From NCBI GenBank assembly GCA_028280505.1, contig JANQLO010000046.1, positions 1 to 56,564 on the forward strand: a stretch of 56,564 bases of DNA, in the 5' to 3' direction. Origin of the DNA: Chromatiales bacterium. GTDB lineage: Bacteria; Pseudomonadota; Gammaproteobacteria; Chromatiales; Chromatiaceae. Each line of letters opens with the position of its first letter. The first letter of the stretch is position 1. Below the pieces are notes generated by a model. The model was not told the DNA's origin and searched no databases. It saw only the letters and a list, made by a program, of their open reading frames with translations. Both the position numbers and the translations under genes were made by a program. Below, piece after piece: positions 24,107-45,584 of this stretch.

Positions 24107-24110
24107 ACCG

Positions 24111-28038: not shown

Positions 28039-29259
28039 TTATGCCGAGGCCGCCGAGACCTCGTTAACACCATCCTTGCGCAACATGTCGCGGATACCCC
28101 TTACGGCCTGACGCGTCCGATGTTCGTTTTCGATCAGACCGAAACGCACATAGTCGTCACCGTATTCGCCAAATCCGATACCCGGAGCAACGGCGACCTT
28201 CGCGTCGCGTATCAGCTTTTTCGAGAATTCCAGCGAGCCCATCTCGCGATAGGCCTCGGGAATCTTCGCCCATGCGAACATCGTCGCTTTGGGCCTTTCG
28301 ACCGCCCAACCGGCGTTGTTCAAACCGTCGCACAATACATCGCGCCGGCGCTGATACATGTTTCGAATCTCGGCCACACAGTCCTGCGGCCCCTCCAGCG
28401 CGGCAATCGCCGCAACCTGGATCGGCGTAAACATGCCGTAATCGAGGTAAGACTTCATCCGCGCCAACGCCCCTACCAGTGTTTCATTGCCGCACATGAA
28501 CCCGACCCGCCAACCCGGCATGTTGTAGCTCTTCGACAAGGAAAAGCACTCCACGGCGATTTCCTTCGCACCGGGCACCTGCAGAATCGACGGCACCGTT
28601 CGGCCATCGAACACGATGTCCGCATAAGCCAGATCGTGAACGACCCAAATATTGTTCTCCCGAGCGATCGCGATAACCTTTTCGAAAAATTCCAGCTCGA
28701 CACAATGCGCGGTCGGGTTCGACGGAAAGCTCAGCACCAGCATCTTGGGGCGTGGCCAGGACGCATGGATCGCATTTTCCAGCTCGGCAAAGAATCCCTG
28801 CTCGGTCTGTATCGGCACATGACGCACATCGGCGCCGGCAATGATGAAACCGTAGGGATGAATCGGATAGGTCGGATTAGGCACCAGCACGGTATCGCCG
28901 GGACCGACACAGGCCAGAGCCAGGTGCGCAAGTCCTTCCTTCGAACCGATGGTGACGATAGCCTGGGTCTCGGGATCCAGATCCACATCGTAACGACGGC
29001 CATACCAATCGCTGATCGCCTTGCGCAGACGCGGGATACCCTTGGACAGAGAATAGCGGTGCGTATCGCCTCGCTGGGCCGCCTCGGTCAACTTATCGAC
29101 GATATGTTGCGGTGTCGGCTGGTCAGGATTCCCCATGCCGAAATCGATAATGTCCTCACCACGCGCTCGGGCCGCGGCCTTCAGTTCGTTGACGATACCG
29201 AACACATAAGGCGGCAGGCGTTTGATACGGTGAAACTCGTTCATTTCGGGCGTGGACAC
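28039..29259 (-). CDS. alaC: AlaC-type alanine/glutamate aminotransferase
   Basis: A 406-residue class I PLP aminotransferase. [19 protein letters not shown] and [13 protein letters not shown] start the protein as in AlaC (YfdZ); NPTAHCVE is the NPT box, [16 protein letters not shown] holds the PLP lysine, and [15 protein letters not shown] holds the carboxylate-binding arginine. Reaction: pyruvate plus glutamate to alanine plus 2-oxoglutarate. In some taurine pathways alanine made by taurine:pyruvate aminotransferase must be recycled, but that enzyme is not in this window, so the link to xsc is position only. The ackA gene is 50 bases upstream on the same strand. Confidence 0.9.
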
Positions 29260-29309
29260 TGGGGCCTCCGTTTTGTCTGCTTCTGGATGTCATGCCAACG
29301 TTACACCCT

Positions 29310-30512
29310 TTACTGCGGCAATGCCTGGACCAAACGTCGCGTATGCCGAGTGATCACCAATTCCTCGTCGGTAGGAATCGCCCAAACCTTGACGGCACTG
29401 CCCGGCAAGGTAATCGATGTCGCATTGGCCGCATTGGCGTTCGCATCGAAATCGATACCGAGCCAGGACAGTTGCTTACAGACCTTTTCACGCACCGGTG
29501 TCGCATGCTCGCCAATACCGCCGGTGAACACCAATCCGTCGACCCCGTCGAGAGCCGCGGCCATGGAACCGATCGCGCGCACCAGCGTGTAACAAAACAA
29601 CGCGACAGCCTCGGCCGCCGCCGGATCATCGCTGTTGAGCAATACCTGCATGTCCGCACTGACCCCGGATACGCCGAGCAGGCCGCTTTCGTTGTACAAC
29701 AGCCTGGACAAAGCCGCCTCGTCCATATGCTGCTCACGCATCAGATGCAACAGCACGCCCGGATCGATACTGCCGCAGCGTGTTCCCATCAATAAGCCGT
29801 CCAGAGTCGAAAAGCCCATAGAACTCGCCACGCTTTTACCGTCCCGGATAGCGCACAGGCTTGCCCCATTGCCGAGATGTGCGACGATCAAACGTTGCGG
29901 CAAACGACCTTGGTTGTAGTCGGGCACGGCCCCGGTGATGAACTCGTAAGACAAGCCATGAAAGCCGTAGCGTTGCAGCCCCTGCTCCCGCAGCGCGCGC
30001 GGCAACGGTAAACAACGCGCGATCGAATCTTGTGTGGCGTGGAAGGCGGTATCGAAGCAGGCAACCTGCGGCAAATCCGACGCAGTCTCCGCAACGGCAC
30101 GAATCGCGGCCAGATTGTGTGGCTGGTGGTGTGGTGCCAATACCGATAACGCATCGAGTTCTTTGAGCAGCTCAGACGTGACCAAGGCGGGGCTTCGTCG
30201 GTCCGGCCCACCGTGGACCACGCGATGACCGACACCGATCAAACGCAAATCGTCGGCATATTGCTCGATCCAGCTCAGCGCATAGACAATCGCTTGCTGG
30301 TGATTGCCGATCTCCTCGGCAGTACTCGATACCGATTCACCCTTGGACGCTTCGGTTCCGATCCAGGCACGGAAAACCGGCGCCGAACCGATACCGGAGA
30401 TCTGTCCTCTCAGGGCCACGACGAAGTCGCCCGCGTTTTCCATGACTTGGAAAACCGCGAACTTCACGCTCGACGATCCGGCGTTCAGAACCAATACCCC
30501 GGTGTCCGACAT
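29310..30512 (-). CDS. ackA: Acetate kinase
   Basis: A 400-residue ASKHA-fold kinase that makes ATP and acetate from acetyl phosphate. Signatures: VLVLNAGSSSVKFAVF, GHRVVHGG, PHNLAAIRA, FDTAFHAT, RYGFHGLSYEF, IVAHLGNGASLCAI, LLMGTRCGSIDPGVL and VFTGGIGEHA. ATG 30512 follows a strong GGAGG ribosome site. It lies next to xsc, whose product is acetyl phosphate. Many described xsc clusters have pta there, which makes acetyl-CoA; here the neighbour would conserve the phosphate bond as ATP and release acetate. A terminator separates the two genes, so it may have its own promoter or depend on read-through. Confidence 0.96.
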   Translation of the reverse strand: MSDTGVLVLNAGSSSVKFAVFQVMENAGDFVVALRGQISGIGSAPVFRAWIGTEASKGESVSSTAEEIGNHQQAIVYALSWIEQYADDLRLIGVGHRVVHGGPDRRSPALVTSELLKELDALSVLAPHHQPHNLAAIRAVAETASDLPQVACFDTAFHATQDSIARCLPLPRALREQGLQRYGFHGLSYEFITGAVPDYNQGRLPQRLIVAHLGNGASLCAIRDGKSVASSMGFSTLDGLLMGTRCGSIDPGVLLHLMREQHMDEAALSRLLYNESGLLGVSGVSADMQVLLNSDDPAAAEAVALFCYTLVRAIGSMAAALDGVDGLVFTGGIGEHATPVREKVCKQLSWLGIDFDANANAANATSITLPGSAVKVWAIPTDEELVITRHTRRLVQALPQ

Positions 30513-30565
30513 AGATCCTCCGTCAGTCCGTATCCGTTATGTTAGCCACTTCGGCTCCCTGCCTC

Positions 30566-30598: not shown

Positions 30599-30643
30599 AA
30601 ACACCTTCCTACGGAGGATTAAGAGGAAGCAAAGCGTATTCGC

Positions 30644-32407
30644 TCAGACATAGTCCTTGTACTTGTCCAGGTAGCGCACCGGCTTACTCAGCGCATCGCG
30701 GCGGAAGGGGTCGCCCAACTCGCGGGTACACATGATCTCGAGGATGCAGGTCTTGCCTTCGTTCATCTGCATATCGACCGCCTTCTTCAACGCCGGACCG
30801 ACATCTTCGAGCTTGTCGACGCGAATACCTTCGGCCCCCATCGACTTGGCGATCTCCGCCCAGCTCTCGTTTTCGAGTTCGGCGGCGACGAAGCGACGAT
30901 TGTAGAAATCCACCTGATTCTTCTTTTCCGCACCCCATTGGCGGTTATGGAACACCACCGCGGTCACGGGTATGTTGTGGCGTACGCAGGTCAGCGTCTC
31001 CATCATGCTCATGCCCCAGGCACCGTCACCGGCATAGGAGACGGCCGGACGGTCCGGCGCCGCGACCTTGGCACCGATAATGGTCGGAAACGCATAACCA
31101 CAGTTGCCCCAGCTCATCGCGGCGAAGAAGCTGCGCGGCCGATCGAATCGCAGGTAACTGTTCGCGACGGAGTTGATGTTACCGATGTCGGTCGAGACCA
31201 TGACATCTGCCGGCATCGCCTTTTCGAGTTCACGCAATACCTGACGCGGGTGTAGGTAGCTGCCGTCCTCGGCGTCCTGCTCGGCGATCATGTCGAGACT
31301 GAACGGGTCCTTTTCATGGGTCCATTCATCCAACTCTTTCTCCCAGGCCGCTTTCTCCGACGCAATCTCATCGGCACGCGCGTCGCGTGTCGCATCGCAG
31401 GCCAAGGTACGATCGGCCAAGCGAGCGGTCAGCGCCCTGGCAGCTGCGCCGGCGTCACCGCAGATCCCCACCGAAATCTTTTTCACCAAACCGAGCATCT
31501 TGTGATCGGCATCGACCTGGATGATCTTGGCATTCTTCGGCCAGTAATCCATGCCGTGCTGCGGCAAGGTACCGAATGGACCGAGACGTGATCCCAAAGC
31601 CAATACCACATCGGCCTTGGCCATCAGTTTCATCGCTGCCTTCGAGCCCTGGTAGCCCAAGGGGCCACACCACTGCGGGTGACTGGCCGGGAATGAGTCA
31701 TTGTGCAGATAGCTGTTCACGACCGGACAACCAAGACGTTCCGCCAGTTCCTTACACTCGTCGACCGCATCGGCCATGACCACGCCACCGCCGGAAATGA
31801 TGATCGGGAACTCGGCCTCGGCCAATAGATCGGCTGCCTCATTGAGACTGGTCTCGCCACCGGGGCCGCGATCCAAACGCTGCGGCTCTGGAATGTCGAC
31901 ATCGATGTCGCCATAGAAATAATCACGCGGGATGTTGAGCTGGGTCGGCCCCATCTCCGCCATCGCGCGGTCAAAACAACGCCCGGTGAACTCGGCCATA
32001 CGTGCCGGGTTGCAGACATGTCCCTGGTACTTGGTGTGCTCCTGGAACATCGGCAACTGATTGGCCTCTTGGAAACCGCCCAGGCCGATGCCCATGGTGC
32101 CGGCCTCGGGCGTGATGATCACGACCGGGCTATGCGCCCAATAAGCGGCGGCGATGCCGGTCACACAGTTGCTGATGCCGGGACCATTCTGACCGATGGT
32201 GACACCATGACGGCCACTGACACGTGAATAGCCGTCCGCCATATGCGCCGCGCCCTGCTCGTGCACCACCGGGATCAAGCGAATTCCGGCCGGCGCGAAG
32301 ATGTCCATCGCGTCCATAAAGGCCGAACCCATGATTCCGAACATGTCGGTCACTTCATTGGCGGCCATGGTTTCGACAAATGCTTCACTCGGGGTCATTC
32401 GGGCCAT
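30644..32407 (-). CDS. xsc: Sulfoacetaldehyde acetyltransferase
   Basis: A 587-residue ThDP enzyme that converts sulfoacetaldehyde plus phosphate to acetyl phosphate plus sulfite. ThDP glutamate lies in PVVHEQGAAHMADGY, and the Mg-ThDP motif runs from GDGAWGMSMM to VVFHNRQWGAEKKNQ; the NRQWGAEKKNQ and FYNRRFVAAELE stretches are characteristic of Xsc and not of acetolactate synthases. ATG 32407 is preferred to GTG 32416 because AGGAG is eight bases upstream. It is divergent from an IclR regulator gene across an AT-rich 374-base promoter region. It is the committed desulfonating step for taurine, isethionate and other C2 sulfonates. Confidence 0.97.
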   Translation of the reverse strand: MARMTPSEAFVETMAANEVTDMFGIMGSAFMDAMDIFAPAGIRLIPVVHEQGAAHMADGYSRVSGRHGVTIGQNGPGISNCVTGIAAAYWAHSPVVIITPEAGTMGIGLGGFQEANQLPMFQEHTKYQGHVCNPARMAEFTGRCFDRAMAEMGPTQLNIPRDYFYGDIDVDIPEPQRLDRGPGGETSLNEAADLLAEAEFPIIISGGGVVMADAVDECKELAERLGCPVVNSYLHNDSFPASHPQWCGPLGYQGSKAAMKLMAKADVVLALGSRLGPFGTLPQHGMDYWPKNAKIIQVDADHKMLGLVKKISVGICGDAGAAARALTARLADRTLACDATRDARADEIASEKAAWEKELDEWTHEKDPFSLDMIAEQDAEDGSYLHPRQVLRELEKAMPADVMVSTDIGNINSVANSYLRFDRPRSFFAAMSWGNCGYAFPTIIGAKVAAPDRPAVSYAGDGAWGMSMMETLTCVRHNIPVTAVVFHNRQWGAEKKNQVDFYNRRFVAAELENESWAEIAKSMGAEGIRVDKLEDVGPALKKAVDMQMNEGKTCILEIMCTRELGDPFRRDALSKPVRYLDKYKDYV

Positions 32408-32781
32408 AGGTCTCACTCCTCATCAGAAAAAATACGGCCCTTTGCCAGGACCGCTTTCATTGTTTAAATGAGATTAGCTGTCTCATTTTTATTGTCAAGT
32501 TTATTATCCGTTCTATTATTAAACGATTTTCAAGACCAATCATTCCTAAATTCAGCGAATGCCATATCGTTCGTGACAGAAAACCGTCATTGCGCCGATT
32601 CCAACCTATCTGCACCCGATAAAATCTCGTTTTTTCACTATGAAACGAAAAAAACCGCCAATAAATCAAAAAATCAGGACTTTTCGTATCTTTTATGCTT
32701 TGATCAATAGAGTTATTGGGTCGAAACCCACACAGGCCCATGCGCATGCCCCCCATCACGACCAAAGGGATCGAAGCGACA
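32408..32781. promoter_or_regulatory. AT-rich divergent promoter region of xsc and iclR
   Basis: 374 bases without a gene, far richer in A and T than the flanks. At 32466-32488 an inverted repeat has arms AAATGAGA and TCTCATTT around seven bases, a likely operator about 60 bases upstream of xsc. A second, shorter palindrome TTTCA-cta-TGAAA is at about 32636-32648. The CTCATTTTT half-site at 32482-32490 recurs at 40532-40540 in the other sulfonate promoter region. Exact -10/-35 boxes could not be fixed. Confidence 0.55.
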
Positions 32782-33564
32782 ATGAAAGACGGCGGTACCC
32801 AGTCCACGCTGATCCGTGGTTTCACGATCGTGGAAAAAATCGTCCAGGCCGATCGACCACTATCCAGCGCCTATCTGGCCGAAGAACTCGATTTGCCCAA
32901 GGCCACGGTCCATCGCATTTGCCAACAACTCGAAGAGGAGGGCCTGCTCCAGCGCGAGCCCGGCGGCAAACGTTTCACCGGCGGCAAACGCCTGCGCAAT
33001 CTCGCGGTGTCCACACTATCCAACTCGGTACTGAGCGCACATCGCCGGTCAATCCTGCAGGCGCTGTCGCACGAGGTCGGCGAGACCTGCAACCTGACCG
33101 TGCTCGACGGCAACGAAATCCTCTACCTCGACCGAATCGAAACAAACTGGCCGTACCGCATCCACCTGCCCGTCGGTTCGCGCCTGCCGCTGCATTGCAC
33201 CGCGACCGGCAAATTGTTTCTGGCCAATATGAAACCGGCCGCACGTCGACGCATGCTCGACAGCCTCACACTGAACCGACACACCGATCTCACCATCACC
33301 GATACCGAAGTGTTGGAAGAACAGCTACGCAAGATCGCGGAGGAAGGCGTCGGCTACGACACGGGCGAATATCTCGAAGGCCTGGTGGCCTTGGCGGTGC
33401 CGGTCATCGGAGAAGACAATCAGATGTGTTTTTCGATCGCCATCCATGCCCCGTCGGTACGCAAGACACTCGACGAGCTGCGCCAGTATCTACCCACGCT
33501 GCGCCACGCCGCCGCCCGCATGGCAGCAACCGAATGTCGGCCGGACAGCGAAGACGCCGCCTGA
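32782..33564 (+). CDS. IclR-family transcriptional regulator (xsc side)
   Basis: About 260 residues: an N-terminal winged helix-turn-helix (STLIRGFTIVEKIVQADRPL, LPKATVHRICQQLEEEGLLQ) and an IclR effector-binding domain (GETCNLTVLDGNEILYLDRI, LPLHCTATGKLFLA, YLEGLVALAVPVI). ATG 32782 fits the domain start; in-frame ATGs at 32740 and 32746 would add a tail without family support. It is divergent from xsc and is closely related to the second IclR at 44028, with nearly the same recognition helix, so both may bind the same operators. Likely ligand: a C2 sulfonate or intermediate (inference). Confidence 0.9.
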   Translation: MKDGGTQSTLIRGFTIVEKIVQADRPLSSAYLAEELDLPKATVHRICQQLEEEGLLQREPGGKRFTGGKRLRNLAVSTLSNSVLSAHRRSILQALSHEVGETCNLTVLDGNEILYLDRIETNWPYRIHLPVGSRLPLHCTATGKLFLANMKPAARRRMLDSLTLNRHTDLTITDTEVLEEQLRKIAEEGVGYDTGEYLEGLVALAVPVIGEDNQMCFSIAIHAPSVRKTLDELRQYLPTLRHAAARMAATECRPDSEDAA

Positions 33565-33573
33565 GGCCTTTAC

Positions 33574-34269
33574 ATGAACGACACCGGCGAACAACTCATC
33601 CCCGTGCTCGACATCGTCGCGCTGACCGTGTTCGTCGTCACCTGGATCGCGTACGTCGCCTATACCAAACGTTGCAATCTGCACGGGCAACGCGGCCTGC
33701 TCGCCGCCATGAATCGTGTACGCGAACAATGGGCAGACACCATCCTCGAACGCGACAACCGCATCGTCGACAGCCAGGTGATCAACGGTTTGGTACGCAA
33801 GGAAACCTTCTTCGCCTCGACCACCCTCCTGATACTCGCCGGCACGGTCGCATTGCTCGGTATGGACGATCAGGTCAATCAATTGTTCAACGAAATCCCC
33901 TTTGCGCAAGCCATGCCGCTGGCGCTCTGGGAACTCAAGGTCGGTGTACTGGCGGTGATCTTCGTGTATGCCTTCTTCAAGTTCACCTGGGCGATTCGGC
34001 AACACTCCTATTGCGCCATCCTGCTGGCATCCATCCCATTACCCAACAAGGCGGAAGAACAAGACGGTGCGACGCAGACACAACGCCTGGCCAAGCTGAG
34101 CAATCTGGCCGCACGCCACTTCAACGACGGCATGCGCGCCTATTATTTTGCACTTGCCGAACTGAGTTGGTTCCTCAACACATGGGTGTTCCTACTTGCG
34201 ACAGCCTGGGTGATCCTGGTGTTGTACCGACGCGAGTTCCACTCCAAGGCGCTGCGCATTCTCAGTTAG
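33574..34269 (+). CDS. DUF599 integral membrane protein
   Basis: A 231-residue protein with about four membrane helices: LDIVALTVFVVTWIAYVAY, the TTLLILAGTVALLGM region, LKVGVLAVIFVYAFFKFTW and LNTWVFLLATAWVILVLY. The block MNRVREQWADTILERDNRIV and the SNLAARHFNDGMRAYYFALAE region mark the DUF599 family. It starts nine bases behind the iclR gene, so it is co-regulated with xsc control. In some alphaproteobacterial xsc clusters a small membrane protein called TauZ is proposed to export sulfite or sulfate; whether this protein is homologous to it I cannot test here. Confidence 0.85.
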   Translation: MNDTGEQLIPVLDIVALTVFVVTWIAYVAYTKRCNLHGQRGLLAAMNRVREQWADTILERDNRIVDSQVINGLVRKETFFASTTLLILAGTVALLGMDDQVNQLFNEIPFAQAMPLALWELKVGVLAVIFVYAFFKFTWAIRQHSYCAILLASIPLPNKAEEQDGATQTQRLAKLSNLAARHFNDGMRAYYFALAELSWFLNTWVFLLATAWVILVLYRREFHSKALRILS

Positions 34270-34270
34270 G

Positions 34271-35155
34271 CTAGCCTGCTGTTGTACAACTGGTGCAACA
34301 CGCGGGCTGACACTGCGCGCGAACGGTTTCGAACAGCGTATCCATCGCCTTCAGCGGCAGGGTGTCGCGATGACGCACCAACACCGTGGGTACGCTTGCC
34401 AGGTCCGCATCGATTGCCTGCATATGAAGATCTTCGCGATATCGGCTTTGGTCGACCACCCAACTCGGGACCAAGGTGGAGCCCAGACCGACCGCGACAC
34501 AGCCGAGAATGCCGTCTAGCGTCCCGAACTCCATGACTTCGTCGATATGATGGCCTCTCGCACGTCGCCAGGCCAAGGCACGGGCACGATAGGCGCAACC
34601 CTCGCGGAAAAGGATCAACGGCAACCGTCCGCTGTCTTCATCGGGTGCACAAACCAGTACCAACTCCTCGGTCGTCACCTCGTCGACCCGCAGCTCAGGA
34701 TGGTCGACCGGACCACAGACCACAGCGCAATCCAGCTTGTGATCCAGTACCTGATCGATCAACACCGCCGAGGTATCGGTCTGTACCCGCAACGACAGTT
34801 TCGGATGAATGCGCCGCAGACTTTTCAACGCGAGCGGCAAGCGCAACGCGGCAAAGATCTCCATTGCACCGATACGCAACTCGCCGGTCTGCTCACCGAC
34901 CTGACGCACCGCCAGCTCCGCCTGCGATTCGAGTCGCAGCATCTGCCGTGCATAGTCGAGAAGCACCTTGCCACTGGGGGCCAGTTCGAGGCCACGCCCC
35001 TTGCGATAGAACAATTCGGTACCGACCTCGGTCTCCAGACGCTTGATCCGCGCGGTGACGTTGGATTGCACCGTATTCAGTTTGCGCGATGCGGAAAGAA
35101 TGCCGCCCTCTTCGACAACGGCCTGAAAGGTACGCAGCGACTGCAAATCCATCAC
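34271..35155 (-). CDS. LysR-family transcriptional regulator
   Basis: A 294-residue LTTR. Helix-turn-helix: LQSLRTFQAVVEEGGILSAS, LNTVQSNVTARIKRLE; the effector domain follows (ELRIGAMEIFAALRLPLALK.. to VPSWVVD). The TVQSNVTARIK form of the recognition helix matches the LTTR group often paired with permeases. It is divergent from a YbfB/YjiJ-type MFS gene over about 90 bases and probably controls it. The last codons end two bases from the convergent DUF599 gene. The C-terminal tail CQPACCTSCTTAG is cysteine-rich and unusual. Confidence 0.92.
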   Translation of the reverse strand: MMDLQSLRTFQAVVEEGGILSASRKLNTVQSNVTARIKRLETEVGTELFYRKGRGLELAPSGKVLLDYARQMLRLESQAELAVRQVGEQTGELRIGAMEIFAALRLPLALKSLRRIHPKLSLRVQTDTSAVLIDQVLDHKLDCAVVCGPVDHPELRVDEVTTEELVLVCAPDEDSGRLPLILFREGCAYRARALAWRRARGHHIDEVMEFGTLDGILGCVAVGLGSTLVPSWVVDQSRYREDLHMQAIDADLASVPTVLVRHRDTLPLKAMDTLFETVRAQCQPACCTSCTTAG

Positions 35156-35248
35156 TATTCTCCATTCAAGAACAGATATATCTTCTTTTTTCTCTTTTTT
35201 TGATACGAAGAAGCCTATACCTTCCCCTATCAGTAATGCAAAGGAACC

Positions 35249-36451
35249 GTGATGGGCAGCCGATCGTTAGAACGACTCAAGGTACTCAGTGCCGGCATTA
35301 TCAGCCTGGTACTGATGCTCGGTATCGCCCGTTTCGCCTACACGCCGCTGTTACCGCTGATGCAACAGCAGGCCGGGCTCGGCGTGGCCGAAGGCGGCTG
35401 GCTGGCGGCGATCAACTACATGGGTTACCTGAGCGGCGCCATCATCGCGTCCCTGATCAGCGACATCATGCTCAAGGACCGCCTGTATCGCGTAGGGCTG
35501 ATACTGGCGCTCGTCACCACCATCGGCATGGGCGTGACCGATAACCTCTGGCTATGGGCGGGCATGCGCTTCATCGCCGGTCTGAGCAGCGCTGCGGGGT
35601 TGTTGCTGGGTTCGGGCCTGATCCTGCATTGGCTGATCCGCCACGACCACCGCAGCGAGCTGGGTATCCATTTCGGCGGCCTCGGCCTGGGTATCGCCTT
35701 TTGCGCCATCGCGGTCGAGCTGATGCATCCCTATTTCGACTGGCGAGAACAATGGGCGCTGTTGACCGCAATGGGCGTACTCATGGCCATACCGGCCTGG
35801 GCATGGCTGCCGCGTCCCGAGGCCCAAGCGGTCACGAAAAAGGGCACGGCGATGGTCGATCGGCCGCCCAGCGCGACCTTTCTGCGCCTGTTCATGGCAG
35901 CCTATTTCTGCGCCGGCGTGGGCTACGTGGTGAGCGCGACCTTCATCGTCGCCATCGTCGACCAACTGCCCGGTCTGGAAGGCAAGGGTTCGTGGACCTT
36001 CATGGTACTCGGTCTCGCGGCCGCACCGGCCTGCATCATCTGGGACCTCATCGCGCGACGCGTCGGCGACGTCAATGCCCTGATCATGGCCTTCGTCCTG
36101 CAGATCATCGGCATCCTGCTGCCGGTACTCGCGCCGAACCTGGGCATGACACTGCTCGGCGCCGCGCTGTTCGGGGGCACCTTCATCGGTATCGTCAGCC
36201 TGGTACTGACCATGGCCGGACGCTTCTACCCCACCCGACCGGCCAAGATGATGGGCAAGATGACCATCTCCTATGGCGTCGCACAGATCGTGGCACCGGC
36301 CATCACGGGGGTGTTGGCGGAGGGCGACGGCGGCTACGGCAATGGCTTGTATCTTGCCGCCGTCATGATGATCATCGGTAGCGTGCTGATGCTGATCATC
36401 AAGGCTCGCCATCGAGACGAACTGCAGTTGGCGTCGGCCACTGCAAGATAA
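35249..36451 (+). CDS. YbfB/YjiJ-family MFS transporter
   Basis: A 400-residue permease with twelve predicted helices. VLMLGIARFAYTPLLPLMQQ and GWLAAINYMGYLSGAIIASL at the start are diagnostic of the YbfB/YjiJ group; WMAGMRF-like GMRFIAGLSSAAGLLL and the late GRFYPTRPAKMMGKMTISYG support it. The substrate is unknown. It sits between the xsc genes and the TRAP genes and is divergent from its LysR partner; export of an acid or sulfonate product is a guess from location. Confidence 0.9.
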   Translation: MMGSRSLERLKVLSAGIISLVLMLGIARFAYTPLLPLMQQQAGLGVAEGGWLAAINYMGYLSGAIIASLISDIMLKDRLYRVGLILALVTTIGMGVTDNLWLWAGMRFIAGLSSAAGLLLGSGLILHWLIRHDHRSELGIHFGGLGLGIAFCAIAVELMHPYFDWREQWALLTAMGVLMAIPAWAWLPRPEAQAVTKKGTAMVDRPPSATFLRLFMAAYFCAGVGYVVSATFIVAIVDQLPGLEGKGSWTFMVLGLAAAPACIIWDLIARRVGDVNALIMAFVLQIIGILLPVLAPNLGMTLLGAALFGGTFIGIVSLVLTMAGRFYPTRPAKMMGKMTISYGVAQIVAPAITGVLAEGDGGYGNGLYLAAVMMIIGSVLMLIIKARHRDELQLASATAR

Positions 36452-37138: not shown

Positions 37139-37212
37139 TTTAAGTCGGCAGCAAGCCATACAATGGCCGCATTTTTGCGGCACACCACAATAAGAACTCC
37201 CCCTCTTGAGAC

Positions 37213-38301
37213 ATGGATACAGTCTATATAGGCACTTATCTTCCTTTTTGGCTCGCGGTCGGTATCAGCTTTTTAGACTTCGTCTTCGGTTACTACGACA
37301 AGTATTTCGATTCAGCACTGGATACTGCACGAGCCAATTTCCGGCGTTACGGTGGCCAAGATATCTCGCCATGGCCGTTCCATTGTTTCCGCGAAGCCCT
37401 TGTTCGCAAGGGTCAGACGGCTTTCCTTGGGCTGCTAATTGTCCAATGCATTGTGTCAATTGCGGTCGGCGTCGCCGATATACCAGATCATGGCAATGTT
37501 TCCGTCGGTGAACTCGAAACGATGTTGAGCACGGTAATAGCTCTGGGCATCTTATTATTTGCGCTGATGGTCGTGCTGTTTGTGTCATTTTTTCAGCCGT
37601 ACGCATATGCGTGGTATTACCCTCGTACGTTAGAACGTTTCTCTCATACGTTACGCGCGGCTGCTGGTCGAGTCGTGTTGATCTTTATTTTTTGGGCCAT
37701 GTTAGTGTACACGCCTGATGTGATAGGAATACTTCAGCATTTGCGCAGCGTCCATATCGATGTGGCCTCGCTAACAATGTTCGGTTTTCTCACGATCACA
37801 TTACTACCAGCAATTTTGCGGGCCCACAGTTTGAGGAAAGGAATCAACAACGCGGCGACATGCTCCGAAAATCTACACAATACGCTGTCCGCGGCCATAT
37901 ACGATTGCGACGTAGCGGTGACACCGCTGGCCGTTATGGCTGTACACGCCACAAAAGAACTCGAGCCTTCACTGCGACGTCAATTGACGAATTTGTTTGA
38001 ACTACCGGGACAACATTGCGTTTACTCAACGGAGAAACACTCTGCATTGATCATTGTTCTACCCGGTCTGGGTGCCGCTGAGGCCGGCATGAAGGCCGAA
38101 ACACTAATTAACGACCATGTCGCTGAACATAACGGCAACCAATTGATATCGATCGGTATCAGCATCTATAAGTTTCACGGCCATTCGCCGGACTCCCTTG
38201 TCGAACGCGCCATCAAAGCGTGCGGGGTCGCAGCAAAAAGACAATCCAAGATTGCCATCGCTATGCGTAGCGATACAACTCCACGCGAAGCGTTATGCTA
38301 G
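37213..38301 (+). CDS. Five-helix membrane protein with GGDEF-like C-terminus lacking the signature
   Basis: A 362-residue protein. Membrane helices: about 7-27, 70-90, 104-135, 152-172 and 183-203. The cytoplasmic C-terminus (about 235-350) follows the pattern of the second half of a GGDEF domain: VYSTEKHSALIIVLPGL sits where RYGGDEF..VLLPG would be, and QLISIGISIYKFHGHSPDSL, then VERAIKACGVAAKRQSKIAI match the usual VTVSIGIA...A..ALYRAK..G.N.I ending. The G-G-[DE]-E-F loop itself is gone, so no diguanylate cyclase activity is expected. The resemblance is by pattern only. Low-GC codon use suggests transfer. Confidence 0.6.
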   Translation: MDTVYIGTYLPFWLAVGISFLDFVFGYYDKYFDSALDTARANFRRYGGQDISPWPFHCFREALVRKGQTAFLGLLIVQCIVSIAVGVADIPDHGNVSVGELETMLSTVIALGILLFALMVVLFVSFFQPYAYAWYYPRTLERFSHTLRAAAGRVVLIFIFWAMLVYTPDVIGILQHLRSVHIDVASLTMFGFLTITLLPAILRAHSLRKGINNAATCSENLHNTLSAAIYDCDVAVTPLAVMAVHATKELEPSLRRQLTNLFELPGQHCVYSTEKHSALIIVLPGLGAAEAGMKAETLINDHVAEHNGNQLISIGISIYKFHGHSPDSLVERAIKACGVAAKRQSKIAIAMRSDTTPREALC

Positions 38302-38801
38302 AAGCTTCGCCTTTCACCCAAGCTTATGATATTGGCTCGAGAAAAACTCCAAGCCATTACGCACCAGGAATTAGGGTGTTATGCGACCATTCGTTTCGAT
38401 TGGCGAATTTGTGACAGATATGCTGGAACTACCGAACACCCAGCGTCTATAGTCGCTTAAGACTAAAGCTCTTCGATTTCAGAAGCTAAAGAATATTTGC
38501 TGGCTCGATACTCATTAAGGATGTATGGAAAGCCGGGCTCTGGGACAATACCCCATTCTTTACTAAACCCACTACACTTCATAGTGTTCGCTTCGCGCTT
38601 CAGTAATGGAGACGATAGCGGAAAAATTTCCTTTCACCCCTTAACGAGCGCGAGCTAACTCCTTCGTCGTGGATGTTCGCTGTGAGTAGAAGACAACCGA
38701 AACTGGCCTCTAGAAAATCCATCACAATAGAGCGGAACACGTGGTCTCCTCATGCCAGATCGAATCTGGGCTTCTACACATCAAACATAACAACCACGGC
38801 G
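38302..38801. other. AT-rich non-coding end of the islet
   Basis: 500 bases without a supportable gene. Short frames exist but have no ribosome site or family match. The composition returns to the genome norm at the GMC dehydrogenase 3' end at about 38.8 kb. I see no transposase, no tRNA and no terminal repeats. Confidence 0.5.
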
Positions 38802-40418
38802 TCACGCACTTCGAGCATCTTCAAGAATCATATCCGAGGCCTTCTCCGCGATCATGATGGTCGGCGCGTTGGTATTGCCGGACACGATCTCGGGCATGAT
38901 CGACGCATCGACGACACGTAGATTCTTGACGCCACGCACCCGCAGGCGATCGTCGACCACGGCCATGTCGTCGTGGCCCATCTTGCAGGTACCCGCCGGA
39001 TGATAGATGGTCTGACTATGCTGTCGCGCCGCCTCCAGTAATTCTTCATCACTCTGATACTGCCGGCCTGGTACGTACTCGTCGATGATATGCGGCGCCA
39101 ACGCCGGCGCCTCGGCGATGCGTCGAGCGACTTTGATGCTGTCGATCGCAACCTGATGATCGCGTTCGTCGGACAGATAGTTCGGATGAATCGCGGGATG
39201 TTCCAACGGATCTTTCGATTTGATCTCCAGATAGCCGCGGCTATGTGGCCGAAGCTGGCAAACCGACGACGTGAAGGCGGAAAACTTATGCGCACCATCG
39301 CCGGGTTTGTCCGCACTCAGCGGCTGCATATGGAACTGAATATCCGGACGTTCGGCATCCGGGTTCGACCGGGTAAAGACGGCAACCTGACTGGCAGCCA
39401 AGGTCAGCGGTCCGGTACGGCTGAAGACGTACTGCAAACCGACCAAACCTTGCTTGAAGATATTGTTGACCTCATCGTTAAGGGTCCGTTGGCTGGTCTT
39501 GAACACCAGGCGAATTTGCAAATGATCCTGCAGATTTTGGCCGACACCGGGCAGATCCCTGACCAAGGATACGCCGACCTTGTCCAACAGCGTCTTCGGC
39601 CCGACACCGGATAACTGCAGAATCTGCGGCGAACCGATGGCGCCGGTCGATAGGATCACCTCGCCCCCGGCATGCACATGCACCTCATGCCGTTGGCCGC
39701 CCTTCAGGTACTCGATACCGACCGCCCGGTCGTCCTCGAACAACACCCGCGTGGTCTGCGCCTTGGTCAGTACGGTGAGATTGGCGCGCTTTCGCACAGG
39801 GCGTAGAAAGCCCTTCGCGGTGCTCCAACGAAAACCCTTGTGCGCGGTCTGCTGGAAGTAGCCGACCCCTTCCTGCTGCGCACCGTTGTAGTCGTTGTTA
39901 TAGGGTATGCCGACCTCGGTAGCGGCCTTGATGAAATACTCGGCAATCGGACGACGCAGGCGCAGATCGGAAACCTTCAGCGGCCCGCCGACACCGTGGT
40001 ACTCGTCCGCACCCCGCTCCTGGTCTTCCGATTTCTTGAAGTACGGCAGCACCTCATCGAAAGACCAGCCTCGATTACCGAGTTTCGCCCAGTGATCGTA
40101 ATCCTCGGGCTGGCCGCGCACATACAACAGCCCGTTCAAGGAACTGGAACCGCCCAGCACCTTGCCACGCGGCCATTGCAAACGCCGTCCGGCAATACCC
40201 TTGTCCGGTTCGGTCATGTAACACCAGTCCGTCGCGGGATGGTGCATGGTTTTGAAATACCCCACCGGAATATGAATCCAGGGATTGATATCTGATCCAC
40301 CTGCCTCGATCAGCAAAACCCGATTGGTCGGATCGGCGGACAGTCGGTTGGCCAGAACGCAGCCGGCCGACCCAGCACCGACGATGATGTAGTCATACTG
40401 CTGATCAGTCTTGGTCAT
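38802..40418 (-). CDS. GMC-family FAD dehydrogenase, candidate isethionate dehydrogenase
   Basis: A 538-residue flavoprotein: [20 protein letters not shown] binds [23 protein letters not shown] is the GMC signature 1; [17 protein letters not shown] is signature 2; HPAGTCKMG holds the catalytic histidine. ATG 40418 has GGGGAG nine bases upstream. Automatic tools may call it choline dehydrogenase, but its signature region is unlike BetA. It is divergent from a TRAP transporter and regulator, the gene set described for isethionate use (IseJ with IseKLM in other bacteria), and xsc lies 6 kb away. Role as isethionate to sulfoacetaldehyde oxidoreductase, probably passing electrons to the respiratory chain, is inferred from context. 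Confidence 0.8.
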
Positions 40419-40807
40419 TCGGTTCATCTCCCCGCAATGCATGGCTCACATTCGGGGCACCGGCTTACCTCCTCCTTGCCTTTCCCCGGTGACGTACCGA
40501 TAAACACGAATCGGCATGTCAACCTAAAATGCTCATTTTTTGAGCCTATAAGAATCATTTTTTTAAGTCAAGGGTTGCTATAGATCAAAAATAAGCTATA
40601 AATGAGCTTCATGGATTCATTTTCTAGAGATTGCATCAGGCCTCGCTAATATGCCCGACATCGGGGGGATGGCGCGCAGCGCTCGGAACAGCAGCACGAT
40701 CCATAGACAGGTACCGGCCAAATCGACAGCCCGCATCGACGAGAAGCAGCAGAAGAACCGCGGCAAGGCACGGCATCCCAAAACAAAACGAGTGAGGAGT
40801 GAACGAT
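40419..40807. promoter_or_regulatory. AT-rich divergent promoter region of the GMC dehydrogenase and TRAP genes
   Basis: 389 bases without a gene. An inverted repeat GCTCA-ttttt-TGAGC is at 40531-40545 and a second, AAGCT-N7-AGCTT, at 40593-40609; between and after them are A/T tracts. The CTCATTTTT half-site (40532-40540) is the same as in the xsc promoter region. Both sites sit in the most AT-rich part, where the two promoters should lie. Boxes could not be assigned with confidence. Confidence 0.5.
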
Positions 40808-42034
40808 ATGACCGACGAATCTCAAAAGATTTCGCGACGCGATTTCATGAAAGTGTCCGCACGCTATGGCATGACCTCGACCCTGCTGGCGGCCGGTACC
40901 CTGGGTGCGGGCGCAACGGTAGCGAATCTCGCCCAGGCGGCCGAGGCAACGGCCAAGAAACGTAATACGGTGGAGCCCAAGTTCAAATTGAAATTCGGTG
41001 CATCGGGATTCAATCAAAAGAACCTGGACATCCAGAAATCCGGCCAACTGTTCTTTGCCAAAGATCTCGAAGACCGTACCGATGGTGCTATCCGGGTCGA
41101 GTTCATCGGCAGCAATCAGATCTGCGGCCAAACCAACTGTGTGAAAAAGACGCAGCAACGCATTGTCGACATCTATTCGGCATCGACCCAAAACTCGGCT
41201 GGCGGCGCACCCTATCTGAACGTGCTCGACTATGCGTACATGTTCCCGTCACGTGCCGCCCAGTATCACTTCTTCTATAGCCCGAAGAGCGAGGCATTGC
41301 TGCGCGAGCCACTGCGCAAGCGCCACAAGATTCAGTTCCTTTTCACCCATTGTGAACTCCGCGGCATCCAGTTGGGCCTGAAATGGGACGACAAGCCGAC
41401 CGTGACTTCGGTCGAGCAACTGGCCGGCACTAAAAACCGTGTCACCGGCACCCAGCTCGGACGTATCGCCATGGAACTGATGAACCTCAACCCGGTACCT
41501 ATCGCCTGGGAAGAGACGCTCGACGGACTCAAGCAGGGTCTGATCGACGGCGCCGAGACATGGATGGGCGCGGTCGCCTACGCGGGTATGGCCCCGGTGG
41601 TGTCCCAGTGCGTCGATCTGCAGTTCTTCTGTGGTACCGAACACACCGCCATGAGTCTGCCCGTATTCGACAAGCTCGGCTCGGACCTTCAGGACGACGT
41701 CATGGAATCGGCGTACCTGGCACAGATCTATACCCAGGGCATGAACGAGGCCGGCCTGTACGACATCGTCGGCGCGACCAATCCACAAAAACCGGGCACG
41801 ATTTTCGCCGAGAACAATGTCCGCGTCGCCACGCTGTCGGATGCCGAACTGCGCAAGGCCGAACAGATGTGCTCGCCCGAGTTCAATCCCAAGCCATGGG
41901 AACAATGGCGCGAACGCCTGAACAAGTGGTCCGGCGGACACGATACCTACAAGGAGATCTACGACATCGCGCGTGAAATTCCCAAGGACATGCCACCGGT
42001 CAATGTACCTCCCCGTCGTTGGTGGAAAGGCTGA
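40808..42034 (+). CDS. TRAP transporter substrate-binding protein (DctP type)
   Basis: A 408-residue exported protein. The N-terminus KISRRDFMKVSARYGMTSTL is a twin-arginine signal, so it is exported folded; the hydrophobic core ends AANLAQA-like before AEATAKK. The fold is a DctP/TAXI-like solute receptor (GSNQICGQTNCVKKTQQRIV; KNRVTGTQLGRIAMELMNLN with the conserved arginine region; LIDGAETWMGAV). ATG 40808 has AGGAG eight bases upstream; GTG 40799 is also in frame. With the following DctQ and DctM genes it forms one importer. A sulfonate such as isethionate is the likely ligand by gene context only. Confidence 0.9.
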   Translation: MTDESQKISRRDFMKVSARYGMTSTLLAAGTLGAGATVANLAQAAEATAKKRNTVEPKFKLKFGASGFNQKNLDIQKSGQLFFAKDLEDRTDGAIRVEFIGSNQICGQTNCVKKTQQRIVDIYSASTQNSAGGAPYLNVLDYAYMFPSRAAQYHFFYSPKSEALLREPLRKRHKIQFLFTHCELRGIQLGLKWDDKPTVTSVEQLAGTKNRVTGTQLGRIAMELMNLNPVPIAWEETLDGLKQGLIDGAETWMGAVAYAGMAPVVSQCVDLQFFCGTEHTAMSLPVFDKLGSDLQDDVMESAYLAQIYTQGMNEAGLYDIVGATNPQKPGTIFAENNVRVATLSDAELRKAEQMCSPEFNPKPWEQWRERLNKWSGGHDTYKEIYDIAREIPKDMPPVNVPPRRWWKG

Positions 42035-42078: not shown

Positions 42079-42179
42079 CTGACTATTCGCGTCAGGACCA
42101 TACTTACCATCTACCCGGTAATCAGGGTCGACCTTCGGTCGCTCCCCGTCTATCGGCGCAAACAATGAGAGGGATGGAC

Positions 42180-42707
42180 ATGAAGCTATTGAAAGGCTTG
42201 TTCAACTGGCTGGACCATAACACCGAGAAGGTCATCATCCTGATCACCTACTCGACCATGGCCGGTATCATTTTCGTCGAGGTGGTACGCCGCTTCCTGT
42301 TCAACGAGCAAGTCGCCTGGAGTACCACGGTGCCGGTACTGTTGTTTCTCTGGGTGACCTGGTTCGGCGCCTCGTACAACATTCGCAAACGCACCCATTT
42401 GTCTTTGACCGAAATCCGTTCGCGCATGCCCTATGGCGCGCAGTTCGCCTGCTTCATCATGGACGCGGTGTTGTGGATCGTGTTCGCCGTCATCGTCATC
42501 TATTACACCTACGAACAGACCTGGCTGGCCTACGACAACTACGCCATCGTCGGCGGTACCGATAACGTCATGGAATGGTGGTTCTACCTTGCCACACCCG
42601 TAGCCTGGGGAATGATCGTTGTTCGCGTGTTGCAAAACCTGGTGCAGGACATCAAGCGTTATCGCGCACGCGAGCCGTTCGTCCTGCAAGCCTCGTTGCT
42701 GGACTAG
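42180..42707 (+). CDS. TRAP transporter small membrane subunit (DctQ type)
   Basis: A 175-residue protein with four membrane helices, opening with LFNWLDHNTEKVIILITYST and with the family's VVRRFLFNEQVAWSTTVPVL and WFGASYNIRKRTHLSL segments. ATG 42180 has GAGGG six bases upstream; ATGs at 42165 and 42174 are also in frame. It sits between receptor and DctM genes, nine bases before the latter. Confidence 0.92.
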   Translation: MKLLKGLFNWLDHNTEKVIILITYSTMAGIIFVEVVRRFLFNEQVAWSTTVPVLLFLWVTWFGASYNIRKRTHLSLTEIRSRMPYGAQFACFIMDAVLWIVFAVIVIYYTYEQTWLAYDNYAIVGGTDNVMEWWFYLATPVAWGMIVVRVLQNLVQDIKRYRAREPFVLQASLLD

Positions 42708-42716
42708 GGAGCGCAA

Positions 42717-44006
42717 ATGGATAACGGAACACTCATCACACTGATTTCGATCGGCGTCACGATCCTGTTCATTCTCGGCGTCCCGATCTTTCTCGTTATC
42801 GGATTCTGGGTTGTAGGCTGCAGCCTGGTGATCGATTTCACGCTGGCCAATGTCGGCGTCACCCTGTTCGAGGGACTCAGTTTCTTCGGCCTGCTGGCAC
42901 TACCGCTATTCATCCTGACCGGCGACCTGATCAACGCCGCCGGCATCGCCAAGCGGATGTCCGATTTCGCCTACTCGGTCATGGGTTGGATACGCGGCGG
43001 CCTGGGCATGGCCACCATCGGCGCCTGCGGCATGTTCGCCGCGATATCCGGTTCGAACGCCGGCACGACGGCGACCATCGGCTCGATCATGCAACCGGAA
43101 ATGGCCAAGAACGGCTACGACGCGCGCTTCGCGGCGGCGACCGCGGCTGCCGGCGGTACCGTCGGCATCATCATCCCACCGAGTATCATCTTCATCGTTT
43201 ACGGTTTTCTGCTCGACCTGCCGATCAGCGACCTGTTCATCGGCGGCATGCTGCCGGGCATCCTGATGGTCATCGCCATGCAAGCCGCCTGCTTCTACAT
43301 GTGCCGAAAACACAAATGGGGCCATCTGATCAAGCTCGAGCCCAAGAAGATCGCCAAATCGGCGCTCAAAGCCTATCTCGGTTTCATCGCCATAGGAATC
43401 GTCATCTACGGTATTTATTCGGGCACCTTCTCACCGACCGAAGCGGCCGGCGTAACCGTCGGTTTCTGCTTGATCGCCGGCGTCCTGGTCACCCGTCAGA
43501 TCAAGATCAGCAAGCTGCCGGAAATCCTGCTGCGGTCCGGGCAGATCACCGGCATGCTGGCGCCGCTGATCGCGATATCGGTCGTCATGCAGCAACTTCT
43601 ATCGCTACTCGGTGCCGGTGAGGTCGTGAACGGCTGGATGGCCTTGCTGGGCGACCCGACATTCGTGTTGTTGGCCTGTATGTTCCTGGTGTTGATGGCC
43701 GGTACGGTACTCGAAAGCCTGCCAAACACCATAATCCTCGCGCCAATTCTGGCGCCGATCGCGTACAATGCAGGTGTCGACCCGATCCATTTTGCTGTGA
43801 TATTCCTGGTCGGTGATGCCATCGGATTCATCACTCCGCCGTATGGACTGAATCTGTACGTTGCGAGCGGCATGACAGGGATACCGTACTTCACGATCGT
43901 ACGTTTCGTCGTGCCTTATCTGCTCGCCCTGATGGCCGCCTGGATGATCATCGCGTTCTGGCCGCCGTTGTCGACTTATCTGTTGCAGTTCAGCGGTACC
44001 GGCTAA
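42717..44006 (+). CDS. TRAP transporter large membrane subunit (DctM type)
   Basis: A 429-residue permease with about twelve helices. FILTGDLINAAGIAKRMSDF, GACGMFAAISGSNAGTTATI, PPSIIFIVYGFL and the late PLAIT-like LAPIAYNAGVDPIHFAVIFL with ITPPYGLNLYVASG are standard DctM features. GGGAG lies six bases before ATG 42717. It moves substrate with Na+ using the receptor-bound ligand. An IclR regulator gene follows 21 bases downstream. Confidence 0.95.
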   Translation: MDNGTLITLISIGVTILFILGVPIFLVIGFWVVGCSLVIDFTLANVGVTLFEGLSFFGLLALPLFILTGDLINAAGIAKRMSDFAYSVMGWIRGGLGMATIGACGMFAAISGSNAGTTATIGSIMQPEMAKNGYDARFAAATAAAGGTVGIIIPPSIIFIVYGFLLDLPISDLFIGGMLPGILMVIAMQAACFYMCRKHKWGHLIKLEPKKIAKSALKAYLGFIAIGIVIYGIYSGTFSPTEAAGVTVGFCLIAGVLVTRQIKISKLPEILLRSGQITGMLAPLIAISVVMQQLLSLLGAGEVVNGWMALLGDPTFVLLACMFLVLMAGTVLESLPNTIILAPILAPIAYNAGVDPIHFAVIFLVGDAIGFITPPYGLNLYVASGMTGIPYFTIVRFVVPYLLALMAAWMIIAFWPPLSTYLLQFSGTG

Positions 44007-44027
44007 GCGAGAAAACCAACGGGTTTA

Positions 44028-44810
44028 ATGGCGACTGAGAAGAACAACCATCCGACCATCCTGCGCGGCCTGATCGTACTCGAGAAGGTCGTGCAGGCTC
44101 AGCGCCCGATATCCGCCACCGACCTGATCGAGGAACTCAATCTCCCCAAGGCGACGGTCAATCGCATCCTGCAGCAATTGGAGGATGAAGGTCTGTTGCA
44201 ACGCGAACCGGTCAGCCGTCGTTACATGCCGGGGCCGCGCACCCGTGAAATGGCGCTCGGCGTTATGTCCAACAAAGCACTGGGCGCACCACGGCATGCG
44301 ATTCTGCAGGCATTATCGGAAGAGATCGGAGAGACCTGCAACTGCACCATGCTGGACGGCGACCACACGGTGTATTTCGACCGAGTGGAAGCCAACTGGC
44401 CTTATCGCATTCAACTCCCGGTCGGCTCGAAACTGCCCTTACACTGCACCGCCAGCGGCAAGCTTTACCTGGCCCATATGAATGCCCGCATGCGGCAACG
44501 TCTGATCAATGCCGCGCCGTTGAAACGCTATACCGATCGCACCGTCACCGATCCCGTCCTGTTGTTCGACGAACTCAAGCGCATCGAGGAAGAAGGCATC
44601 GGTATCGACAACGAGGAATTCATGGCCGGTATGGTCGCAGTGGCGGTACCGGTATTCAACGACAGTAACGACATCTGCTTTACCGTCGCAGTGCACGCAC
44701 CGACGGTGCGCAAACCCCTGGAAGCACTGCGCCAATACGTCCCTTCACTGCGTCAGGCCGCAGCCGCGATGGCGGCCACCTATTGCAGCGCCGGAGTGGA
44801 CGACGCCTAA
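44028..44810 (+). CDS. IclR-family transcriptional regulator (TRAP side)
   Basis: 260 residues: winged HTH (PTILRGLIVLEKVVQAQRPI, LPKATVNRILQQLEDEGLLQ) and effector domain (ETCNCTMLDGDHTVYFDRVE, LPLHCTASGKLYLAHMNA, MAGMVAVAVPVFN). It aligns without gaps over most of its length with the IclR at 32782, and the recognition helix differs at two positions, so they are paralogues. It lies downstream of the TRAP genes, probably on the same transcript, which would give autoregulation. Described isethionate clusters also carry an IclR-type regulator. Confidence 0.92.
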   Translation: MATEKNNHPTILRGLIVLEKVVQAQRPISATDLIEELNLPKATVNRILQQLEDEGLLQREPVSRRYMPGPRTREMALGVMSNKALGAPRHAILQALSEEIGETCNCTMLDGDHTVYFDRVEANWPYRIQLPVGSKLPLHCTASGKLYLAHMNARMRQRLINAAPLKRYTDRTVTDPVLLFDELKRIEEEGIGIDNEEFMAGMVAVAVPVFNDSNDICFTVAVHAPTVRKPLEALRQYVPSLRQAAAAMAATYCSAGVDDA

Positions 44811-44837
44811 GCCGGCTCGTCTTGAACCCTCAGCAAA

Positions 44838-45584
44838 ATGGAGCCCCAAGCCATCCTCGCCTTTCTCGGGCTGGTGGCAATCGGCAGCTATCTGCAAACC
44901 ATATCCGGCTTTGCCATCTCGCTGGTGATCGTCGGCGGCGTCACCGCACTGGGGTTGGCGCCGATCGCGTTCACCGCCAACGTGGTCAGCTTCGTGGCAT
45001 TGACCAATGTGCTGGTCGCGATATACAGAAATCATGACCATATCGACGCCGACATCATGTGGCACAGCGCTGCCGGTGTGTTGCTGGTCACCGGCGTCGG
45101 TCTTTGGCTACTCGGCCATATGAGCGTCAATGCGGTAGATATGCTCGAACTTCTGCTCGGCTTCATGATCCTCATCAGTGGCACAATCCTAATGATTCAC
45201 CCACATCCCCTGAAGCAGGTATCGGGTAAAGGCATGCATCTGATAGCCGGGGGCTTCGGTGGCCTGCTGAGCGGCATGTTCGGTGCCGGTGGACCGCCGC
45301 TGGTGGTACATCTGTACCGCCAACCTTTGGCATTTTCGATCATTCGCACCACGATGTTGGCTATCCTGGGCATGATGCTGGTGATCCGTATCGGCATGGA
45401 AGGCGTCGCCGGCAATATCACGGACGACATACTGGAACTCAGTGCATTGGGCATTCCGGTATCGATTATCGGAACGCTGGCCGGCCGCCGTTTTCCACCA
45501 CCGGCATCCGACACCGCAATGCGACGCTTCGCGTTTGCGCTACTGTGCGCGATCGGTTTGTCGCTGATCGTCGGCAATCTCTAA
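44838..45584 (+). CDS. tauE: TauE/SafE-family (DUF81) anion exporter
   Basis: A 248-residue membrane protein with about eight helices in two repeats: LVAIGSYLQTISGFAISLVI at the start and GGFGGLLSGMFGAGGPPLVV in the second half are the family's hallmark glycine-rich segments. Members of this family export sulfite made by Xsc in other bacteria. It is 27 bases behind the IclR gene and thus in the TRAP operon. Sulfoacetate or another anion is the alternative cargo. Symbol given from family and context, not from a measured function. Confidence 0.85.
   Translation: MEPQAILAFLGLVAIGSYLQTISGFAISLVIVGGVTALGLAPIAFTANVVSFVALTNVLVAIYRNHDHIDADIMWHSAAGVLLVTGVGLWLLGHMSVNAVDMLELLLGFMILISGTILMIHPHPLKQVSGKGMHLIAGGFGGLLSGMFGAGGPPLVVHLYRQPLAFSIIRTTMLAILGMMLVIRIGMEGVAGNITDDILELSALGIPVSIIGTLAGRRFPPPASDTAMRRFAFALLCAIGLSLIVGNL

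Follow-up and report, generated by a model that had tools for sequence, protein, structure and literature searches.

Gene content and layout of the region

Isethionate is a natural compound of sulfur and carbon. Here we describe a candidate isethionate catabolic cluster in a stretch of 56,564 nucleotides (contig JANQLO010000046.1, assembly GCA_028280505.1) from a Chromatiales bacterium of the family Chromatiaceae. This stretch, referred to below as the window, is the entire contig C46 of a 4.65 Mb genome in 85 contigs with a completeness of 99.98%. The candidate cluster consists of two halves. In one, the gene for a GMC-type dehydrogenase is divergent from the K-L-M genes of a TRAP importer, which are followed by genes for an IclR-family regulator and an exporter; in the other, xsc and ackA lie beside a second IclR gene and a gene for a DUF599 protein.

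38802..40442, minus strand: GMC-type FAD dehydrogenase, candidate isethionate dehydrogenase IseJ (PF00732/PF05199; alternative start at 40418 possible)
40799..42034, plus strand: TRAP substrate-binding protein (DctP), IseK candidate (PF03480; twin-arginine-like leader judged by eye)
42165..42707, plus strand: TRAP small permease (DctQ), IseL candidate (PF04290)
42717..44006, plus strand: TRAP large permease (DctM), IseM candidate (PF06808, TIGR00786)
44028..44810, plus strand: IclR-family regulator, IseR candidate by position (PF01614/PF09339; matches the place of the IclR gene in plasmid loci L093, L094 and L096)
44838..45584, plus strand: TauE/SafE-type exporter (PF01925, 65 bits against a cut-off of 33)
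30644..32416, minus strand: sulfoacetaldehyde acetyltransferase Xsc (TIGR03457, 1060 bits against an equivalog cut-off of 676)
29310..30512, minus strand: acetate kinase AckA (TIGR00016, 347 bits against a cut-off of 293)
32716..33564, plus strand: second IclR-family regulator, divergent from xsc (PF01614/PF09339)
33574..34269, plus strand: membrane protein of the DUF599 family, perhaps a TauZ-type exporter of sulfate/sulfite (PF04654, 205 bits against a cut-off of 27)

An earlier sequence-only reading of the window had placed Xsc, AckA, the GMC dehydrogenase, the TRAP importer and TauE here, with an IclR regulator in each half. The open reading frames (ORFs) and family matches agree with those positions, and the two regulators were found as listed; the DUF599 gene was absent from that reading's gene list. 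All cluster genes score above curated Pfam or NCBIfam cut-offs, and the GMC, Xsc, TRAP, IclR and TauE genes are repeated neighbours in other organisms, the adjacency of ackA and xsc being seen in fewer cases. Because of these matches and recurring neighbourhoods the genes are not chance ORFs. A 544-residue ORF at 32640-34274 (plus strand) was rejected as a false frame overlying the IclR and DUF599 genes.

Comparison with known isethionate clusters

The isethionate cluster of Ruegeria pomeroyi, iseJ-K-L-M-R, corresponds to SPO2359-2355 (PMC4334477), and mutants in SPO2357 and SPO2358 are reported to be impaired in growth on isethionate and in its drawdown (PMC10130141). The window has the same types of gene (dehydrogenase, TRAP importer, IclR regulator) in the same order as iseR-M-L-K-J of R. 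pomeroyi DSS-3. The two differ in the position of xsc, which in R. pomeroyi stands apart from the ise genes and beside pta (SPO3560-3561), whereas in the window it is nearby and accompanied by ackA and another IclR gene. The same layout of GMC, TRAP and IclR genes was found on plasmids of Ruegeria sp. AD91A, Leisingera sp. M527 and Paracoccus seriniphilus (L093, L094 and L096 respectively), and in the last of these xsc directly follows the GMC gene. Between Ruegeria, Leisingera and Paracoccus plasmids and the window the GMC protein is 57-59% identical, the receptor 67-72%, the large permease 61-62%, the small permease 42-49% and the IclR regulator 43-45%.

The receptor was compared with plasmid-borne proteins by identity rather than by tree, and SPO2358 was not part of this comparison. 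Among the matches listed (the best 25 of 63 records), the window's receptor is 67-72% identical to 12 receptors that adjoin such GMC genes, those of Ruegeria, Leisingera and Paracoccus among them; the next receptor, from Desulfolutivibrio, has 44% identity and the remainder 29% or less. The 12 records are the same as GMC match records H4, H7-H12 and H14-H18. The likeness to IseK that the sequence-only reading had expected of the receptor is borne out to this extent. The 44% match belongs to a TRAP system at 9001-12084 of L104 (Desulfolutivibrio sulfoxidireducens plasmid p1, 58 kb), where it lies beside a sigma-54-type regulator.

The GMC protein scores 657 bits with the subfamily model PRK02106 (cut-off 605), and its 560 bits with the betA equivalog TIGR01810 are below the cut-off of 732. 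To describe the neighbourhoods of its relatives we confirmed 448 stretches in named genomes and kept the best 80, fetching up to 10 kb of flank on each side; 56 of these loci have full flanks (over 9 kb to each side), while for the other 24 a side was fetched to 9 kb or less. Xsc lies in the flank of 44 of the 80 (in two of them known just from end fragments of 32 and 49 residues at the edge of a contig), the receptor in 15 and either one in 49. For the 56 full loci the corresponding figures are 34 with Xsc and 37 with Xsc or receptor. IclR regulators occur in 70 of the 80 loci, TauE-like proteins in 29 and DUF599 proteins in 3.

We then placed 100 GMC proteins in a tree by a quick method with midpoint rooting; SPO2359, the Cupriavidus necator IseJ and AlkJ are not among its rows. 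The window's protein falls in a clade of 82 rows (support 98), apart from the BetA proteins of Escherichia coli and Pseudoalteromonas. Besides the window, this clade takes in the complete set of 80 genome loci and a single row from a Caballeronia plasmid; 43 of its rows have Xsc as a neighbour, 7 the receptor only and 32 neither. Five alphaproteobacterial IseJ-type rows form a separate clade (support 99). As far as its rows reach, the tree favours the sequence-only reading, since the protein sits among GMC proteins linked to xsc and outside BetA, but the IseJ-type rows are not in its clade. Being below the betA cut-off and outside BetA in the tree, the protein was rejected as a choline dehydrogenase.

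A contiguous relative and the split arrangement

The region, called split in the sequence-only reading, is so because about 4.5 kb (34271..38801) separates the GMC gene from the DUF599 gene. The segment contains three genes.

34271-35155, minus strand: LysR
35249-36451, plus strand: MFS_4 transporter
37213-38301, plus strand: membrane ORF without a family name

The nearest named relative of the cluster is a metagenome-assembled genome (MAG) of the Chromatiaceae. In its locus L008 (genome G096) the genes for TauE, IclR, the large and small permeases, receptor, GMC, DUF599, IclR and Xsc are contiguous, with gene order and orientation identical to those of the window at 63-94% identity, and the middle segment is absent. 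In L008 some 50 bases separate the stop codons of the GMC and DUF599 genes; in the window the distance is 4.5 kb. A match to the MFS_4 protein was found in none of the 80 loci of GMC relatives, and the third ORF, which encodes 362 residues with membrane segments at a guanine-plus-cytosine (GC) content of 0.50, has no match in Pfam, NCBIfam or the plasmid collection; with its flanks its GC content is 0.46-0.50, compared with 0.58. Since the segment is absent in L008, has no MFS_4 counterpart in the other loci and is lower in GC at its third ORF, it is most simply read as an insertion in the window's lineage and is probably not part of the pathway, a loss in L008 being a possible alternative. 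The split would then be a feature relative to a contiguous arrangement of the L008 kind. Repeats around the segment consist of just weak pairs, of low identity or short, and therefore no mobile element was identified. The L008 contig stops at xsc, so that any ackA gene beyond it would lie outside the sequence.

A different state is seen in L012 (3286-8495 of a MAG contig), where xsc occurs as two overlapping pieces beside GMC, IclR and DUF599 genes, its frame seemingly broken.

Xsc in the family and the question of taurine

The next best place for Xsc in the window's genome is just 30% identical, and at E <= 1e-150 Xsc was found in 6 of the 96 genomes of the family sample. The xsc-ackA pair of G083, from the same genus, has a taurine-like setting, in which it is accompanied by a MocR-type regulator, a FAD oxidoreductase and another set of TRAP genes; in G065, of the same family, the neighbours of xsc-ackA encode a MocR-type regulator, alanine dehydrogenase and a class III aminotransferase. 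This suggests that modules for isethionate or for taurine may be attached to a shared xsc-ackA core.

The sequence-only reading had seen no tauXY or tpa, and searches of the whole genome point the same way. The best match to the G065 aminotransferase, a Tpa-like query by context only, is 35% identical, and the G083 oxidoreductase, a TauY-like query likewise defined by context and searched without a positive control, gave no match in the window's genome. A taurine reading was rejected on these two results, which hold for context-defined queries.

Probable fate of acetyl phosphate and sulfite

With the Pta family model PF01515 the best match in the window's genome has 21 bits, below the cut-off of 24. 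No Pta above this cut-off was found in the window's genome (G000), in G042 and G083 of the same genus or in G096, the genome of L008; the weak matches in these have 20-21 bits. Pta is present in 11 of 12 family genomes of other genera (hand-picked from 93), in 10 of 14 control genomes and in 37 of the 80 loci of GMC relatives (40 loci if three plasmid loci are counted as well). Cocleimonas flava DSM 24830, the cultured organism whose locus L020 holds the cluster, also has a Pta match. The same Pta places were found in G046 and in G098, the genome of L012, and these are probably a single genome. Two ORFs beside xsc in L101 and L102 that had been guessed as Pta were not shown to be so, one being CobS and the other having no match.

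AckA has a single place in the window's genome, beside xsc, and is the only outlet for acetyl phosphate found there. The genome also encodes the acetate-CoA ligase Acs (1053 bits), and so has the Xsc-AckA-Acs form, with AckA beside xsc and the ligase elsewhere. AckA adjoins xsc also in G083, G065, G064 and the Burkholderiaceae MAG locus L024, and was not seen beside xsc in the stretches of G046 and G086; G065 and G064 carry Pta elsewhere in the genome. Roseovarius is an alphaproteobacterium and is not known to be a Dsr/Apr sulfur oxidiser. Roseovarius sp. 217 shares the replacement of Pta by AckA and acetate-CoA ligase after Xsc, with taurine rather than isethionate as the substrate. The combination of AckA and acetate-CoA ligase has been published as an alternative to Pta after Xsc (PMC5320631), and the title of the Roseovarius 217 taurine paper, as cited in PMC10356861, names the AckA/acetate-CoA ligase route.

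The premise that this organism is a sulfur oxidiser is supported by its genome, in which dsrA, dsrB, dsrE, dsrF, dsrH and dsrC are consecutive and aprA and aprB lie together at one place, with a second aprA elsewhere. The dsrEFH genes mark the oxidative type. Given no Pta match, one AckA, Acs, dsrABEFHC and aprAB, isethionate would probably yield sulfite and acetyl phosphate, the latter being converted by AckA with a gain of ATP. The sulfite may be oxidised or exported. TauE could remove sulfite or sulfate, and so perhaps could the DUF599 protein, a family that we take to be TauZ, which is encoded at the same place in L008 (75% identity) and also in loci L020 and L012. For the sponge symbiont 'Candidatus Taurinisymbion ianthellae' it has been published that sulfite formed by Xsc is oxidised via AprAB and Sat (PMC10356861), and this sulfite source and AprAB are features that it shares; there, according to the same source, the substrate is taurine via Tpa, with a phosphate acetyltransferase.

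The two AprA genes (L119 and L120, on contigs C63 and C14) are different, with 1086 and 905 bits, and aprB lies beside the first; three other L120 proteins that were scanned gave no match.

Regulators and candidate operators

The two IclR proteins of the window are 57% identical to each other. A blind search for 14-mers common to the xsc and GMC promoter regions gave no clear excess: the window has 2 (on average 1.0 and at most 7 after shuffling), L008 has 5 (0.9, at most 7) and L020 has 12 (5.3, at most 13). After this search the palindrome of the xsc promoter region was spotted by eye; a related one lies in the GMC promoter region.

32469..32485: proposed IclR operator in the promoter region of xsc, a 17-bp palindrome (TGAGAT-N5-GTCTCA)
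40541..40557, minus strand: proposed operator in the promoter region of GMC, an imperfect palindrome (TGATTC-N5-GGCTCA) located behind TTGACT

Written as the strict pattern YGAGAY-N5-RTCTCR, the first palindrome is the single match in the window, and similar palindromes lie 70-79 bp 5' of xsc in L008, L020 and L099. Upstream of xsc the strict pattern occurs in 6 of 44 regions (the window, L008, L020 twice, L024, L045 and L099), where a mononucleotide shuffle gives 0.0 expected. In the whole genome of the window it occurs at 20 places (reversed control 0), with T and A at the ends in the window's site alone. A looser pattern, YGAKHY-N5-RDMTCR, was derived from the window, L008, L020, L077, L093 and L094; it matches in 8 of the 45 regions preceding xsc and in 10 of the 87 preceding GMC, where dinucleotide shuffling gives expected values of 0.56 and 1.2 and the reversed pattern gives 0. 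Outside its six source loci it matches 5 of 42 and 5 of 81 regions respectively, to be read against those expectations for all regions. The GMC-promoter palindrome lies behind the same GACTTAAAAAAA stretch in the window and L008.

Against an operator role, the strict pattern is found in just 1 of 86 regions upstream of GMC and 1 of 18 upstream of the receptor gene. The looser pattern is unspecific, with 9 matches in the window (2.8 expected), mostly inside genes, and some of its matches (L065 and L071) resemble GC-rich chance. A combined pattern of -35 element and palindrome fitted the GMC promoter and did not fit the xsc promoter within 2 mismatches. For these reasons, and because the looser pattern was fitted on six loci, we put the IclR-like palindromes forward as candidate operators in both promoters, a tentative proposal; the sharing of the palindrome by both promoters is, as far as it holds, modestly new.

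Other genes in the window

Downstream of ackA lies one further gene whose membership of the cluster we are unsure of.

28039..29259, minus strand: class I aminotransferase of the alanine-transaminase type (PRK08175, 759 bits against a cut-off of 647)

It has a match in none of the 80 genome loci of GMC relatives, nor does it recur in any other locus that was compared. Downstream of it, at 25977-27443 (minus strand), is a protein of succinate-semialdehyde-dehydrogenase type (TIGR01780, 729 bits against a cut-off of 646), for which we saw no connection to the sulfonate pathway. At 21717-24923 (plus strand) an FHA-domain protein, a PknB-like Ser/Thr kinase (below the model cut-off) and a PP2C-type phosphatase adjoin one another, possibly as a phosphosignalling set.

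Discussion

We consider it very probable that the region is an isethionate catabolic cluster, as the sequence-only reading had proposed. The ise gene order, the identity of the receptor to those of IseJ-type layouts, the frequency of Xsc beside GMC relatives and the position of the GMC protein outside BetA all favour this assignment. Several observations weigh on the other side. The best solved relative of the receptor is the 2,3-dihydroxypropane-1-sulfonate (DHPS) receptor 24gc (E 6e-11), ahead of the isethionate receptor 8t9t (E 3e-8), both being distant. Neither Xsc nor receptor lies in the flank of 31 of the 80 GMC relatives, or of 19 of the 56 with full flanks, and no GMC or IseK-like receptor gene lies in the stretches fetched around xsc in the five remaining genomes of the family sample that have it. 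Seven GMC rows with neither xsc nor receptor as neighbours sit between the alphaproteobacterial IseJ-type clade and the beta- and gammaproteobacterial clade, joining the 82 rows at support 90; because of them, this GMC group may not be exclusive to isethionate.

Alternatively, the two halves could be accidental neighbours, with Xsc-AckA dedicated to taurine or another source of sulfoacetaldehyde and GMC-TRAP to some unrelated alcohol or hydroxy acid. The 4.5 kb between them and the taurine-like xsc-ackA layouts in G083 and G065 would fit this. However, the halves are contiguous and in identical order in L008, xsc is linked to GMC in 44 of the 80 relatives, and the context-defined Tpa-like and TauY-like queries found no close counterpart in the genome, so that we regard accidental proximity as unlikely. 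We give still less credence to a role mainly in detoxifying sulfonates or scavenging their sulfur, rather than in the use of isethionate for carbon and energy. A TauE-type exporter and perhaps a second exporter would suit detoxification, but the dissimilatory set of Xsc, AckA and Acs together with exporters fits carbon use. Sulfur scavenging is served by SsuD and TauD. These oxygenases are described as cleaving isethionate and taurine by another route (PMC6453916). Most improbable is a choline or broad alcohol dehydrogenase beside an importer of a C4-dicarboxylate or sugar acid: the GMC protein does exceed the cut-off of the broad PRK02106 'choline dehydrogenase' subfamily, but it fails that of the betA equivalog and lies outside BetA, the receptor is closest to those in IseJ layouts, and no betB, betI or betT is among the annotated neighbours.

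For an isethionate cluster the following route can be proposed. The TRAP system (IseKLM) would import isethionate, and the GMC flavoprotein (IseJ), probably membrane-associated, would oxidise it to sulfoacetaldehyde and pass the electrons to the respiratory chain. Xsc would convert sulfoacetaldehyde and phosphate to sulfite and acetyl phosphate, from which AckA, rather than Pta, would form acetate and ATP, the acetate being activated to acetyl-CoA by Acs. Sulfite could leave via TauE or be oxidised via AprAB, and sulfate would perhaps leave via the DUF599 protein. The paralogous IclR regulators would each control one half, perhaps via the related palindromes.

Each of these elements is already known separately, the AckA route for acetyl phosphate being known but less common. 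As the pathway has been described, the value of the cluster lies in its distribution and wiring. We tentatively suggest, as something possible rather than probable, that isethionate serves this lineage as a fuel of mixed kind, organotrophic as well as lithotrophic, yielding electrons at IseJ, ATP at AckA (the sole acetyl phosphate outlet found, with no Pta found in the three genus genomes searched) and, from sulfite via AprAB, more electrons and ATP, with the two halves under a duplicated IseR pair that reads a 17-bp palindrome conserved from alpha- to gammaproteobacteria. The palindromes would provide a candidate operator for the regulation of isethionate use. The cluster would place isethionate use in sulfur oxidisers of the Dsr/Apr type, where the sulfite set free from an organic sulfonate may feed lithotrophy by serving as an electron donor.

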